This document shows positions 31,377 through 36,690 of a stretch of 48,251 bases of DNA, in pieces. The notes under the pieces were generated by a model. It searched no databases and had not been told where the DNA came from. It saw nothing but the letters and a program-made list of their open reading frames with translations. Origin of the DNA: Natrialba taiwanensis DSM 12281 (GTDB lineage Archaea; Halobacteriota; Halobacteria; Halobacteriales; Natrialbaceae); NCBI RefSeq assembly GCF_000337595.1, contig NZ_AOIL01000052.1:33910-82160 (forward strand), given 5' to 3'. Position 1 is the stretch's first letter, and each line of letters opens with the position of its first letter. The translations under genes and the position numbers were made by a program.

Positions 31377-32489
31377 TCACTCGCCCTCATCGCGCCACGA
31401 ATCCGGAACGTCGATTACGTATCGACCATCCTCCTGCAGCGAAATGATGTACTCCTCCCGGTTATACAGCTCCATTAGATTGAGCTCGTACTGCCCAGGC
31501 TGGACGATCTTGATACTCTCGAACTGCTTGTTGAGTTCTTCCCGCAGTTCCTCCATCGACGGGGTCTCTCCCGTCGGTTCGCTGACGACACGCCCGTGGT
31601 CCGGTGACCCTTCGGCAGCCGCCTGTGCATTGCCGGAAGGCGAATCCGTCGCAGGAACCGAACCCGGACCCGGTGCCGACGGCGATGTCGGATCACTGGG
31701 CGAGGACGGAGACGAGTCCGGTTCGGACGGCACTGTCGACCCGGTCGGCAACTCGTCCGTCGCGACCACCTCGCTCCTGGCGTCCGACTGCGCCGTATTC
31801 TCGCTGTCCGCCATCGTCATCCGACTCGGACTCGCACTCGAATTCGGACCTGCACTCGAAGTCGTCTCCGTGTCTGCAGCTGCGGCCGAACGCGACTCCC
31901 CATCCGGACACGAACTCGGACTCGCACTCGAATTTGAACTCGAGTCCGATACATCACCGTGCTCGCCCTCCGGACTCGTCGATCGGTCTTCAGGACGGCG
32001 AGCAGTATCGGGCCACTCCTCGAACGACCCGAGTTCACCCGACTCCGCCATCTCCGCCGACAAGTCACCATCTGAACTCGCATCTGCAGCCGCTGCAGAC
32101 GCTGTCTCGGAGGAGGAAGGAGACGAAGAGGAAGAGGAGGACCCGGTAGACGGCCACGCCGACGACTCATCGACCGACGCATCCGCTTCGTCTCTCGAAA
32201 CCCAATCGCGGACGGTTTCTGCGGCGCGAGAGGTCATTCCGCTGGAATCGGATTCTGATTCCACCTCTGATTTCGATGCTGACGCCGACTTCGACTTCGA
32301 TCCCGTCTTCACCGAGTCGGATGGCTGCTCCGCCGCCGAGTTCCGGCCGGCGCTCGAATCCGCTGCTGACCCCATCGCCGACGACGGCGTAAACTGAAAC
32401 TTGTTCCCGTTGCAGTCGGGACAGCCCGAGAGCATCTCCTTGGAGCCATCGGGAAACGTCCGACCGCAGTTCGTGCATTCGTGTGGCAT
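31377..32489 (-). CDS. oapC: Origin-associated zinc-ribbon protein OapC
   Basis: A 370-residue protein with three parts: an N-terminal zinc ribbon with CxxC pairs (HECTNCGRTF and SGCPDCNGNKF, residues 5-30), a ~240-residue disordered linker very rich in Ser, Glu, Ala and Pro, and a C-terminal conserved domain (EELREELNKQFESIKIVQPGQYELNLMELYNREEYIISLQEDGRYVID). OapC lies beside oriC in many haloarchaea together with OapA and OapB; a role in replication initiation or segregation is inferred from this conserved linkage only. It is the last gene of the oapABC operon (6-bp gap from oapB). The linker DNA holds imperfect repeats such as ACTCGGACTCGCACTCGAA at ~31826 and ~31917. Confidence 0.9.
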   Translation of the reverse strand: MPHECTNCGRTFPDGSKEMLSGCPDCNGNKFQFTPSSAMGSAADSSAGRNSAAEQPSDSVKTGSKSKSASASKSEVESESDSSGMTSRAAETVRDWVSRDEADASVDESSAWPSTGSSSSSSSPSSSETASAAAADASSDGDLSAEMAESGELGSFEEWPDTARRPEDRSTSPEGEHGDVSDSSSNSSASPSSCPDGESRSAAAADTETTSSAGPNSSASPSRMTMADSENTAQSDARSEVVATDELPTGSTVPSEPDSSPSSPSDPTSPSAPGPGSVPATDSPSGNAQAAAEGSPDHGRVVSEPTGETPSMEELREELNKQFESIKIVQPGQYELNLMELYNREEYIISLQEDGRYVIDVPDSWRDEGE

Positions 32490-32495
32490 GAGTTT

Positions 32496-32903
32496 CTAAT
32501 CACGGGAGACGAGCGCGCTGATCAGCGTTTCGTCCTTGTGTAGGGTCTCGATCTGGTTTGCCGGTCCGATTACCGTCAACTTCGTCTCCGACTCGTTGTT
32601 GCCCATGATCCGGCCGAGCAACGACGAATCGCGCGTCTCCGATTTCGGATACGTCTCGATTTCGATCCCGTTGAACTCGTCCGGACTGATTTCCGACATC
32701 GTCACCTCGATGAGGCGGCTCTCCTCGTCGGGCGTCAACCCTTCTTCTAAGATAACGATGTTGCCATCGTGAACACCATCGAGGATCATCCGAATCTTCT
32801 CCATCGTCGCCATACTGTCCATTCGCTCGCCGCTGATGAGATCGATCTGGACACCGTCAGAGTCTGGGGAATCCGAGTCGTCCGCGTTAGTAGCCTCTGG
32901 CAT
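32496..32903 (-). CDS. oapB: Origin-associated DUF2073 protein OapB
   Basis: A 135-residue protein with the DUF2073 sequence VQIDLISGERMDSMATMEKIRMILDGVHDGNIVILEEGLTPDEESRLIEVTMSEISPDEFNGIEIETYP. The N-terminal 18 residues are acidic and not conserved. It is always found next to the OapA GTPase, suggesting a complex. There is a 6-bp gap to oapA and a 6-bp gap to oapC. The molecular function is unknown. Confidence 0.93.
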   Translation of the reverse strand: MPEATNADDSDSPDSDGVQIDLISGERMDSMATMEKIRMILDGVHDGNIVILEEGLTPDEESRLIEVTMSEISPDEFNGIEIETYPKSETRDSSLLGRIMGNNESETKLTVIGPANQIETLHKDETLISALVSRD

Positions 32904-32909
32904 AGGCGA

Positions 32910-33548
32910 TCACCCGAAGTACTCCGCGATCGAGTCGTACACTTCGTCCATGTTGTCGCCTTCCTTTGCCGACAGCGGGATCGTCTTGTGCTGTGGGAAG
33001 GCGTCTTCGATACGTTTGATGCTCGACTCGTCGAGATCGATCTTGTTCGCGAAGATGAGCACGGGCAGATCGCGAGATTCGATGATGCCGATCAACATCG
33101 TGTTGACCTGGGTGATCGGATCCTCCGCGCTATCGAGCACGTAGACGACGCCGTCGACGTCCTCTCGAAGCCAATGCATCGCCTCGGCGACGCCTTCAGT
33201 CGCCTCTCGCGAACGGCGGATGGCATCGTCTTCTTCCATCTCGTCCGTAAACTCCTCGTAATCGACCTTCGTCGTCACACCGGGCGTGTCGACGATATCG
33301 ATCGTCACCGTCTTGCCGTCGCGTTCGATCTCGACGTTTTCTTTCCTGCGCGCGCGCCGCGTTTCGTGTGGAACGTGGCTTTCGGTCCCGATCGCATCGC
33401 CAGTCCAGTCGCGGGCGATTCGGTTCGCGAGCGTCGTCTTTCCAGCGTTCGGCGGACCATAGATACCGATTCGTTTGGGTTCCTGTTCGGAGAACAGGCG
33501 GTCCGTAACCCGAGAGATACTATCTTTGAGTTCTGTGAACAGTCCCAT
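32910..33548 (-). CDS. oapA: Origin-associated Era-like GTPase OapA
   Basis: A 212-residue GTPase. The G motifs are GPPNAGKTTLANRI (G1), DTPGVTTKVDYEEF (G3), FANKIDLDE (G4, NKxD) and PLSAKEGDN (G5). The start MGLFTELKDSISRVTDRLF is the conserved N-terminus; an upstream in-frame ATG adds 19 unlike residues and is rejected. It is the first gene of the operon oapA-oapB-oapC that runs away from oriC. The promoter lies around 33590-33610, where the minus strand has a CTTAAGT TATA-like stretch. Role in replication is inferred from conserved position. Confidence 0.95.
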   Translation of the reverse strand: MGLFTELKDSISRVTDRLFSEQEPKRIGIYGPPNAGKTTLANRIARDWTGDAIGTESHVPHETRRARRKENVEIERDGKTVTIDIVDTPGVTTKVDYEEFTDEMEEDDAIRRSREATEGVAEAMHWLREDVDGVVYVLDSAEDPITQVNTMLIGIIESRDLPVLIFANKIDLDESSIKRIEDAFPQHKTIPLSAKEGDNMDEVYDSIAEYFG

Positions 33549-33890
33549 CTGTAGGGCCCTCCAGCACCGCGGGGTGCATCTGCGCGTACTACTGACTGAA
33601 CTCACTTAAGCCTACGTCAAACGTATTGAGATTCAGACAACACAGAACGGATATCTATCATGTTCGACATGGATAATTCGTGAACGGTCGATCGACGAAC
33701 TCCGATGAAAACGAACCTTCGAGCAAATCGGTCAGTCAAAGCACGACACTAGATCACGTGATAGGAGATACCATCCATCCATACTCGATACATCATTACG
33801 AGTTCAGATCTGCATCCGGCGGTAGTGAGAAGAGTAGACATGATAGTGTATGAACGAGTGGACCTGCATTATAGACCGTTATGTACTTCT

Positions 33891-33919
33891 CCCCCCCCCC
33901 ACCCCTCCGTTTCAACTGG
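33891..33919 (-). promoter_or_regulatory. Origin recognition box A (minus orientation)
   Basis: The minus strand reads CCAGTTGAAACGGAGGGGT followed by ten G. It aligns with box B in 17 of 19 core positions. The dyad core binds the Orc1 winged helix and the G-run is the haloarchaeal G-string extension. The G-run points away from the unwinding region. Confidence 0.9.
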
Positions 33920-34034
33920 AGAGTTCCGAGAGAAGGCGGCGAGCTCGATGGCTGAGAGAGAAGAGAACTCATCGTTTCCCCTCGAACGATTGTCTGAGAC
34001 GCTCTTCATACAGAATAGCCGGAAACTGACTATT

Positions 34035-34191
34035 CTAGTAACAGAGAACAGTTCTCTAGTAGAGTAGACCACTAGATAACGGTAGTCTAGTTACCTCTAG
34101 TAATACTCTTAGATTTGCTAGTAAGATAAAACTAGCTGCTAGTGGTACGGACCGTATTTCCCACCCACCAACATAAATCCCTTCCTTCTAG
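34035..34191. other. Unwinding-element candidate with phased CTAGT array
   Basis: Nine CTAG tetramers (34035, 34056, 34072, 34087, 34097, 34118, 34132, 34139, 34188) occur in 157 bp of A/T-rich DNA. Six read CTAGT on the plus strand (34035, 34056, 34087, 34097, 34118, 34139), at offsets 0, 21, 52, 62, 83 and 104 bp. These are within about 0.5 bp of whole multiples of 10.4 bp. CTAG is usually rare in haloarchaeal DNA. Confidence 0.75.
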
Positions 34192-34226
34192 ATAACCCCC
34201 TCCCCACCCCACCTGTTGTAGCAGTT

Positions 34227-34252
34227 CCAGTCGAAACGAAGGGGTGGGGGGG
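34227..34252 (+). promoter_or_regulatory. Origin recognition box B (plus orientation)
   Basis: CCAGTCGAAACGAAGGGGT followed by seven G. It is the best ORB in the window and mirrors box A across the A/T-rich region, again with the G-string pointing outward. This is the likely high-affinity site for Orc1 encoded next door. Confidence 0.92.
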
Positions 34253-34689: not shown

Positions 34690-36690
34690 ATGTCAGACGA
34701 CGAAATGGACCGAACGAGTTCGGAGACAGTTACAGAGCGGGATGGAACCGAGAACGGCGAATCCGGATCCGATTCGGGTTCTCGTGCCGATATCGATACC
34801 GACACCGTCGATGCCGCATCAGAGGCCGACGCCGATCCCGATATCGATCCACATGCCGAATCCGACTCCGCGGTCGATTCCGATCCCGCTTCCACTGCTG
34901 CTTCGGACCGGCGCGAGAGTCCGAGAACAAACGGAGAGCACTCAGACGTTGGTTCCGAGCACGGCCAGCGCTCACCGTCTGCGGATGCAGAAACACGCAC
35001 GCAGGCACAATCACAGTCACAATCATCGCCACAGTCACAACCGGATACCACCGAACCCGACCGAACGCACGGATTTTCTAACTTGCCGGACACAGAACTC
35101 GGGGACGGCGGCGACGAGGGCGATTCGAACCAAGGGCTGTTCGACGATCTACTGAGCGGCAAACCCATCTTCGAGAACAAAGAGGTTCTGCGGCCGTCCT
35201 ACACACCCCACGAGCTCCCGCATCGAAGCGACCAGATCAACAAGATGGCGACGATTCTGGTCGCCGCACTTCGCGGGGAAACGCCGTCGAACATCCTCAT
35301 CTACGGCAAAACCGGGACCGGCAAGACCGCAAGCGCAAAATTCGTCAGCAAAGAACTCGAGAGCACGTCCCAGAAGTACAGCGTGCCCTGTGATGTCGAG
35401 TACATCAACTGCGAGGTAACCGACACCCAGTATCGAGTTCTCGCTCAGCTTGCGAACAAGTTCATCGAAAAGAACAAGGCTCGGATCGACGACCGGATCG
35501 AGTCACTCGATGCATTGCTCGATCGTATCGAGACGCACGAGAACGGTGAACAAACCTCTATTTCAAATCGAACTGATTCTTCTGAAGCAGCCCCGTCAAG
35601 TGGGGATACTGGGTCACGTCCAGGTGAAGGAACGGGGTACGACTCGACGAATGATCCGTCGACGGATCCGGTTGCCGGCTCGACCGCTACAGCGGACGAT
35701 CACCAGCCCCAGTCCACCGCCCACCCCCTCGATAGTACCGGATTCGACTCGATCGACGCGGTCGAAACACGGATCGAATCCCTGGAAGCGGACAAGGAAT
35801 CCTTCGAAGAGGTCCCGATGACTGGCTGGCCGACAGACCGCGTCTACAGCGTCTTTTTCGACGCCGTCGACTACGACGAACGGGTCGTCGTCATCATGCT
35901 AGACGAGATCGACAAACTCGTCGAGAAAAGCGGTGACGATACCCTGTATAACCTCTCGCGAATGAACTCCGAACTCGAGAACTCGCGCGTTTCGATCATC
36001 GGCATTTCGAACGACCTCAAGTTCACGGACTTTCTCGATCCGCGCGTCAAATCCTCGCTCGGCGAGGAAGAAATCGTCTTCCCGCCCTACGACGCAAACC
36101 AGCTGCGAGACATCCTCCAGCACCGCTCCGAGGTCGCGTTCAAGGACAATGCGCTCTCTTCGGACGTGATTCCACTGTGTGCCGCCTTCGCCGCACAGGA
36201 ACACGGGGACGCCCGCCGCGCCCTCGACTTGCTCCGGACCGCCGGTGAACTCGCAGAGCGCGCCCAGGCGGAGACGGTCGTCGAAGAACACGTCCGCAAG
36301 GCCCAGGACAAGATCGAACTCGACCGCGTCGTCGAGGTCGTGCGCACGCTGCCGACACAGAGCAAACTCGTCCTCTTTGCGATCATCCTGCTCGAGAAAA
36401 ACGGCGTTCACAGCATCAACACGGGCGAAGTGTTCAACATCTACAAGCGCCTCTGTGAGGAGATCGACGCCGACGTGCTCACCCAACGGCGGGTAACCGA
36501 TCTCATCAGTGAACTCGACATGCTCGGGATCGTTAACGCCGTCGTCGTCTCGAAGGGTCGATACGGGCGGACGAAGGAGATCAGCCTCTCGGTGCCGATC
36601 GACGAGACGGAGGCCGTGTTGCTCTCGGATTCGCGCTTGAGCGATATCGACGACATTCAGCCGTTCGTTCAGGCGCGGTTCGAGAACTGA
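34690..36690 (+). CDS. orc1: Orc1/Cdc6 replication initiator
   Basis: A 666-residue AAA+ ATPase that binds ORBs, melts the origin and loads the MCM helicase. Residues 1-148 are a disordered Ser/Asp/Glu/Gln-rich head with Asp-Pro-Asp and Gln-Ser repeats. The conserved protein starts at GLFDDLLSGKPIFENKEVLRPSYTPHELPHRSDQ. Walker A is IYGKTGTGKTASAKF (205-219), Walker B VVIMLDEIDKLV (400-411), and sensor regions are IIGISNDLKFTDFLDPRVKSSL. The C-terminal winged helix spans about 560-666. About 70 low-complexity residues (283-352) are inserted between Walker A and Walker B, which is not an intein because splice residues are absent. Position beside oriC and conservation mark it as the main-origin initiator. 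Confidence 0.96.
   Translation: MSDDEMDRTSSETVTERDGTENGESGSDSGSRADIDTDTVDAASEADADPDIDPHAESDSAVDSDPASTAASDRRESPRTNGEHSDVGSEHGQRSPSADAETRTQAQSQSQSSPQSQPDTTEPDRTHGFSNLPDTELGDGGDEGDSNQGLFDDLLSGKPIFENKEVLRPSYTPHELPHRSDQINKMATILVAALRGETPSNILIYGKTGTGKTASAKFVSKELESTSQKYSVPCDVEYINCEVTDTQYRVLAQLANKFIEKNKARIDDRIESLDALLDRIETHENGEQTSISNRTDSSEAAPSSGDTGSRPGEGTGYDSTNDPSTDPVAGSTATADDHQPQSTAHPLDSTGFDSIDAVETRIESLEADKESFEEVPMTGWPTDRVYSVFFDAVDYDERVVVIMLDEIDKLVEKSGDDTLYNLSRMNSELENSRVSIIGISNDLKFTDFLDPRVKSSLGEEEIVFPPYDANQLRDILQHRSEVAFKDNALSSDVIPLCAAFAAQEHGDARRALDLLRTAGELAERAQAETVVEEHVRKAQDKIELDRVVEVVRTLPTQSKLVLFAIILLEKNGVHSINTGEVFNIYKRLCEEIDADVLTQRRVTDLISELDMLGIVNAVVVSKGRYGRTKEISLSVPIDETEAVLLSDSRLSDIDDIQPFVQARFEN

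Follow-up and report, generated by a model that had tools for sequence, protein, structure and literature searches.

The predicted replication origin oriC1 of Natrialba taiwanensis DSM 12281 carries a phased, conserved array of CTAG sites in its predicted unwinding region, and this array stands in register with ORB1, the left of its two inverted ORBs. We consider it evenly balanced whether this conserved strip in the predicted unwinding core acts as a docking surface, probably gated by methylation, in register with ORB1-bound Orc1. The array had been noticed in a sequence-only reading of the stretch of DNA analysed here (48,251 nucleotides, called the window).

The CTAG cluster in the predicted oriC1

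The predicted haloarchaeal oriC1 is the intergenic region between an oapA-type GTPase gene (32910..33548, minus strand; PF01926, named from its neighbourhood) and the orc1/cdc6 initiator gene (34690..36690, plus strand; NF001625, 652 bits, with PF09079 and PF22703). Two further genes on the minus strand are oapB (32496..32903; PF09846 OapB) and oapC (31377..32489; PF09845 OapC). Sequence and an ORB search placed ORB1 with its halophile C/G-string at about 33890..33921 (minus strand) and ORB2, the right inverted ORB with its G-string, at about 34224..34252 (plus strand), so the window has the inverted ORBs with G-string, the AT-rich region between them and the adjoining orc1 that mark a haloarchaeal oriC1. 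ORB1 was the reference point for the turn-quantised distances given below. When the oapA protein was used for searching, 73 of the 80 named loci (the best 80 of 462) had an Orc1 match divergent from oapA. In genomes G110, G113, G115, G121 and G393, oapA is seemingly split by a long in-frame insert near the P-loop (frames of about 700 aa), which from its sequence looks like an intein. In G110-G115 and G117 (genus g24) and in G021, oapA and the phased array are on different contigs or tens to hundreds of kb apart, and oriC1 seems to have become separated from oapA there.

Nine CTAG sites occur in 157 bp between the ORBs (at 34035, 34056, 34072, 34087, 34097, 34118, 34132, 34139, and 34188), and the six that read CTAGT lie at offsets 0, 21, 52, 62, 83, and 104, exactly as the sequence-only reading had claimed. 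Its statement that the tetramer is otherwise rare also held in the window, where 17 copies outside 34020-34200 (0.35 per kb) made CTAG the fifth rarest tetramer, tied with TTAA, and where the total of 26 compared with a mean of 64.9 in 100 dinucleotide shuffles. In 34020-34200, the nine sites compared with 2.9 ± 1.4 in 5000 local dinucleotide shuffles (largest 8), and for the whole inter-ORB stretch the local shuffles gave 3.7 ± 1.6 (largest 10). A similar CTAG density in other AT-rich DNA, which the sequence-only reading had said would refute it, was not seen: overlapping AT-rich 150-bp segments from the window and 48 named loci held 4.6 CTAG in the origin (142 segments) versus 0.26 outside (289 segments). 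Chance or AT-richness as the source of the cluster was ruled out by the shuffles and this comparison together. By nearest-neighbour energies, no 100 bp of the 48-kb window melt more easily than 34031..34130, which we take as the predicted unwinding core.

Whether the sites are phased is a fragile matter when judged from one genome. The six CTAGT alone gave R = 0.96 and P = 3e-5, with CTAGT picked after looking; the eight CTAG of the interval gave R = 0.58 and P = 0.024, and all nine gave R = 0.44 and P = 0.12. The result from one genome thus depends on which sites count, and therefore relatives were used.

Conservation and helical phase among relatives

The relatives were 80 named loci found through the oapA protein, the best of 462, together with 80 stretches from genomes of the family, by which we mean the GTDB family (f1), taking in genera g2 and g7 with more distant oapA. 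From these, 132 sequences were used (51 named family-type loci, the 80 stretches and the window); 127 of them had a recognisable ORB pair, and 115 distinct origins were left after duplicate removal. The array was found at fixed offsets from one anchor site (−51, −31, 0, +10, +31/32, and +52) in 92 of these 115 distinct family oriC1 regions; the phased element, whose conservation in relatives the sequence-only reading had proposed to check, is thus conserved. The 92 origins were chosen by a score on +10, −31, +31/32, and +51/52, with less weight on +73, +100, and +101, and part of the agreement at those offsets follows from this choice, which took no account of ORB1 distance, flanks or melting minimum. 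The 50-bp melting minimum was centred within the array in 85 of the 92 origins, with a median of +22 from the anchor. The seven recurrent offsets from −51 to +73, which were picked after looking, gave R = 0.97 at 10.4 bp (P = 2e-4 at 10.5).

The anchor that picks the array is site B (34087..34090), present in 92 of 92 origins by construction. Its 5′ flank is ATT or GTT in 47 of the 92, with AGT in the window itself, which hints at a reverse orientation. To its left are site A (CTAGTAG, 34056..34062, plus strand, −31 from B), kept in 85 of the 92 origins with the 3′ flank TAA in 71, CAA in 7, TAG in 6, and GAG in 1, and site A0 (CTAGTAA, 34035..34041, plus strand, −52), with a counterpart at −51/−52 in 29 of the 92 (TAA 27, CAA 2). 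To its right, site C (CTAGTAA, 34097..34103, plus strand, +10) is kept in 90 of the 92 (TAA 65, CAA 21) and site D (CTAGTAA, 34118..34124, plus strand, +31, elsewhere +32) in 91 of the 92, with TAA in 81 of those 91. Site E (34139..34142, plus strand, +52) is within the conserved block [TC]TGCTAGTnnTACGG and recurs at +51/+52 in 86 of the 92 origins (5′ flank TTG 57, CTG 29). Singling out the six CTAGT was thus supported by the relatives, where the same six recur and where the offsets of the off-phase, non-conserved CTAG at 34072..34075 (−15) and 34132..34135 (+45) are each occupied in 2 of the 92 origins. The minor offset +73 is occupied in 10 of the 92. Site F (CTAGA, 34188..34191, +101) is out of phase with A to E; it recurs at +100 to +102 in 45 of the 92 origins, and R of the recurrent offsets falls to 0.82 (P = 0.006) when it is added.

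An asymmetric tail, CTAG[TC]AA, is found at four sites (−51, −31, +10, and +31/32). The CTAG columns are well kept, whereas the linkers have diverged: where D is at +32 (53 origins), CTAG held 1.87 bits, the 3′ flank 1.43, the 5′ flank 0.84 and the linkers 0.59; where D is at +31 (38 origins), the values were 1.80, 1.27, 0.72, and 0.39. Independently of the alignment, the layout CTAG-27/28-CTAG-6/7-CTAG (spacing 31/32 + 10/11) was counted by hand anywhere in the genome, with some matches away from oriC1, and it occurred in 77 of 101 family genomes versus 25 of 290 others in the class sample. A reversed-pattern control was left unused, since it turns CTAG into GATC, a common word, and gives no fair null.

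To the right of the array is a block of conserved columns, CGG-n-GTTT / ATAAA (34148..34178), which recurs in other haloarchaeal families and which, from its sequence, could be a BRE/TATA-like signal on the minus strand or a ucm-like element. Outside the Natrialbaceae set, 23 named loci were examined and 16 had the CGG element; CTAG lay 6-9 bp to its left in 7 of the 16 and 39-45 bp to its right in 12 of the 16.

The canonical array was absent in 23 of the 115 family origins, among which L010, L035, L051, L161, and L162 were partial, scoring 3 to 3.5 where 4 was required. Likely cases of natural loss are L047 (Halovivax asiaticus) and L175-L178 (genus g11), which have no array; the methylase is retained in the g11 genomes sampled.

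The distance from ORB1 to site B fell into clusters about 10.4 bp apart, with no values between the clusters and one outlying value among the 92 origins: 108 (1 origin, the outlier), 166-169 (21), 176-180 (39), 187-190 (13), 198-200 (16), and 220-221 (2). From B to ORB2, the distance was 137-142 bp. At 10.4 bp, R was 0.88 for ORB1 to the array versus 0.63 for ORB1 to ORB2 (0.87 versus 0.64 at 10.5 bp), so a mere ORB1-ORB2 rule, being looser, does not account for the phase. In the 83 origins with oapA alongside, R was 0.89 for ORB1 to the array versus 0.07 for the control interval from the oapA start to ORB1 (188-730 bp), where the best value for any period from 9 to 12 was 0.20.

Parsimony on the oapA tree of these 83 origins requires 14 or more changes of turn class. 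Of the 41 independent sister pairs, eleven showed a change of at least 4 bp (8, 9, 9, 9, 10, 11, 11, 19, 32, 51, and 70), with a mean cosine of 0.64 (P = 0.001 when lengths are drawn at random from 4-44 or 4-74 bp); the changes of 8 and 70 bp are poor whole-turn fits. The control interval had 28 changes of 4-120 bp with a mean cosine of 0.10, eight larger ones being excluded. The changes between sisters are near whole turns, and therefore length changes appear to be tolerated mainly if the rotational phase is roughly kept; the spacing from the initiator site varies by whole turns, as in a phased protein-binding array. The phase relation implies an assembly that spans ORB1 and the array, not isolated sites.

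As a group, the array-less origins had no common phase (R = 0.22, 16 of the 23 scored). In four Natronococcus origins (L044, L045, L049, and L062), the CTAG cluster is rearranged and the distance from ORB1 to CGG is still in the family phase; ORB1 may therefore be locked to the array, to the CGG block, or to both. At loci outside the family, the spacing varied too little to reveal a phase.

The CTAG methylase, a second origin and known systems

CTAG is the target of a conserved haloarchaeal m4C methylase, the HVO_0794 family, which is called orphan (PMC5867850, PMC6471742); the purpose of this methylation and the reason for CTAG avoidance have been called open (PMC6471742). The genome of the window has a PF01555 methylase homologue (G000:C42:21622-22698), whose specificity for CTAG we infer from the family distribution and these papers. 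This presumed methylase target is clustered in the origin far above background. Methylation of CTAG to m4C has been reported in Natrinema pallidum (PMC12160562), and the origin of that species (L026) carries the array.

Of 391 class genomes, 332 have a methylase homologue, among them every one of the 101 family genomes sampled, and 57 of the 59 genomes lacking it belong, by subtraction, to family f4. We sampled f4 by genus, taking 32 of 69 methylase-bearing and 28 of 58 methylase-lacking genomes with oapA; nine f4 genomes with weaker methylase matches (best E 1e-88 to 1e-101) and the two methylase-lacking genomes outside f4 were left out. An ORB pair was found in 27 methylase-bearing and 19 methylase-lacking origins, and the 14 of 60 loci with no pair were dropped. 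CTAG was present in 18 of the 27 origins with the methylase versus 2 of the 19 without it (Fisher P = 2e-4, kinship ignored), and the mean number per origin was 1.56 versus 0.11. Within genus g35, it was present in 4 of 5 versus 0 of 3. Nine of the 27 methylase-bearing origins had no CTAG, including both scorable g33 origins, and the 31 + 10 layout was absent from all f4 origins listed. The trend matches a published correlation between methylase and CTAG (PMC4752239).

Runs of three CTAG with no gap above 26 bp occurred at six places in the 4.6-Mb assembly (16 overlapping forward matches), and 12 of the 16 matches were at two places, the oriC1 array and a site on contig C67 next to a different orc gene, one of 12 in the assembly. 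That gene has eight CTAG in 51 bp upstream (G000:C67:32043-32093; L314 1501-1551). Of 61 family genomes, 45 gave a match to it at E ≤ 1e-150. Several CTAG of the C67 cluster are 9 bp apart, near repeats of CGTCGCGGATGTAAA. By raw count, 25 of the 30 second-origin loci listed had at least 3 CTAG in 114 bp, and two of the five misses have incomplete sequence. The commonest spacings are 5-6 bp, with no fixed register by inspection and no common tail. A second origin that is dense and unphased suggests that CTAG itself is the shared signal and that the phased layout is an elaboration of oriC1.

The sequence-only reading overlooked CTAG as the methylase target; it also knew of no such element in archaeal oriC. 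The latter stands for the phased array in the literature examined; it does not stand for the CTAG cluster, because CTAG clusters near haloarchaeal orc1/cdc6 and a Dam-like role in replication were already proposed by Blow et al. 2016 (PMC4752239), where motif, place and methylase correlation are all as here (the main text has m4CATG and the figure legend CTAG). What was found there on the motif concerns its density over 50 kb, without fixed positions, helical phase, tail, ORB1 register or a distinction of phased from unphased origins. What appears to be new is these fixed positions, the CTAG[TC]AA tail, the ORB1 phase and the phased/unphased distinction, none of which was found in the literature searched (few subscription journals, no supplements). 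In H. volcanii, a CTAG cluster was described at oriC2 only and its importance was doubted by the authors, and deletion of the CTAG methylase together with others left growth unimpaired (PMC5867850). The word CTAG is absent from the main text of a survey of haloarchaeal origins (PMC3528665). The Haloarcula hispanica oriC1 has a G-rich inverted repeat enhancer, also within two ORBs (PMC3936714), but this is a G/C-rich repeat beside the ORBs, and CTAG is absent from the main text of that paper. The Sulfolobus ucm/UBP system (PMC12141716) has a conserved element in the inter-ORB unwinding region, to which a nucleoid protein binds and without which the origin does not fire; we liken it to the CTAG array by description only, and it has been described for Sulfolobales and Aeropyrum and is not an array.

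The GATC sites of E. coli oriC, with Dam and SeqA, are likewise an orphan methylase target clustered in an origin (PMC5145175). SeqA, the nearest analogue, prefers in vitro GATC pairs phased by whole turns, but the GATC sites of oriC are stated not to be integral turns apart (PMC5145175); the conserved CTAG sites here are. The archaeal array is thus more regular than its model, and the marks differ, m6A in E. coli and m4C on CTAG. To our knowledge, no SeqA counterpart is known in these archaea.

Bacterial DnaA-trios repeat every 3 bp beside the DnaA box. They too are short repeats in an unwinding element, and CTAGTAA includes TAG and TAA; however, the likeness suggested by the sequence-only reading is a poor fit, for the intervals between conserved sites are 10, 20-22, and 31-32 bp, with no 3-bp repeats beside an initiator box, and we rejected it. 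Unlike trios, the units of the array come every 10-31 bp and match the duplex turn.

What the array may do

Conservation of position, flank and phase argues for the protein-assembly half of the reading given at the outset, in which proteins would assemble along a single side of the array, aligned in helical register with ORB1-bound Orc1, and Orc1/MCM would load where the DNA melts. The methylation-gating half is an inference from the specificity of the methylase for CTAG, the comparison within f4 and the second origin. The orphan CTAG methylase would add m4C to both strands, and replication would leave the sites hemimethylated; this may alter the binding of a putative reader, and perhaps duplex stability, and re-opening would be delayed until full remethylation made the origin competent again. 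Several observations count against this reading: 23 of the 115 family origins are array-less, yet all 101 sampled family genomes have the methylase; 9 of the 27 methylase-bearing f4 origins have no CTAG; H. volcanii grew normally after losing its CTAG methylase together with others; and a methylase whose target is palindromic would have no need of an asymmetric tail. So do the off-phase site F and the Natronococcus origins, where the lock may concern the CGG block. We put forward only tentatively, as less likely than not, a counterpart of the Dam/SeqA clock, in which a putative hemimethylation reader and Orc1 would form one nucleoprotein scaffold on a one-faced m4C-CTAG array, phase-locked to Orc1-bound ORB1, and so open or block the origin.

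It is rather unlikely, though to be weighed seriously, that methylation is irrelevant and that a sequence-specific origin or nucleoid protein, a haloarchaeal UBP counterpart or OapA-C, binds CTAG[TC]AA on one face and reshapes the unwinding DNA. The tail, the fixed positions and the phase relation are what a bound protein would demand, and Sulfolobus UBP binds an essential inter-ORB motif (PMC12141716). But origin CTAG tracks the methylase in f4, and second-origin clusters with no common tail or spacing fit the tetramer itself as the signal.

The sites might also be weak Orc1 sites, with an Orc1 oligomer spreading from ORB1 and melting the array. The tighter phase of ORB1 with the array than with ORB2 (R = 0.87 versus 0.64 at 10.5 bp) agrees with this, as does TTCTAGTAAC, which by eye resembles a shortened ORB core; the array sites, however, have neither the TCCA..GAAAC core nor the G-string of ORBs, and the methylase link would be left unexplained, so we judge this improbable. 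Phased TpA steps could make the DNA bendable or easily melted with the word CTAG read by no protein, and the melting minimum does coincide with the array, but we think this very doubtful in view of the near-zero CTAG in other AT-rich segments and in methylase-lacking origins of similar GC, and because C and G of CTAG are almost as conserved as T and A. Least probable of all is a leftward promoter in the conserved block beside site E, with the CTAG sites controlling an origin transcript, not melting. In its favour are the BRE/TATA-like minus-strand signal flanked by sites E and F and the CTAG enrichment upstream of start sites reported for one Haloferax (PMC11001535); it would account for E and F but not for A to D or the ORB1 phase.

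For the family, the vague statement that CTAG is dense at origins becomes a precise, falsifiable layout of sites, flanks and tolerated spacing changes, and the comparative evidence points to an archaeal origin in which ORB1 and the unwinding region form a single complex that is coherent in helical phase. If the Dam/SeqA-like reading is true, Archaea would have a replication switch gated by methylation, one whose helical design rule can be seen. As a docking strip set by methylation, the array likely helps decide when chromosome copying starts, in the manner of the GATC sites in E. coli.
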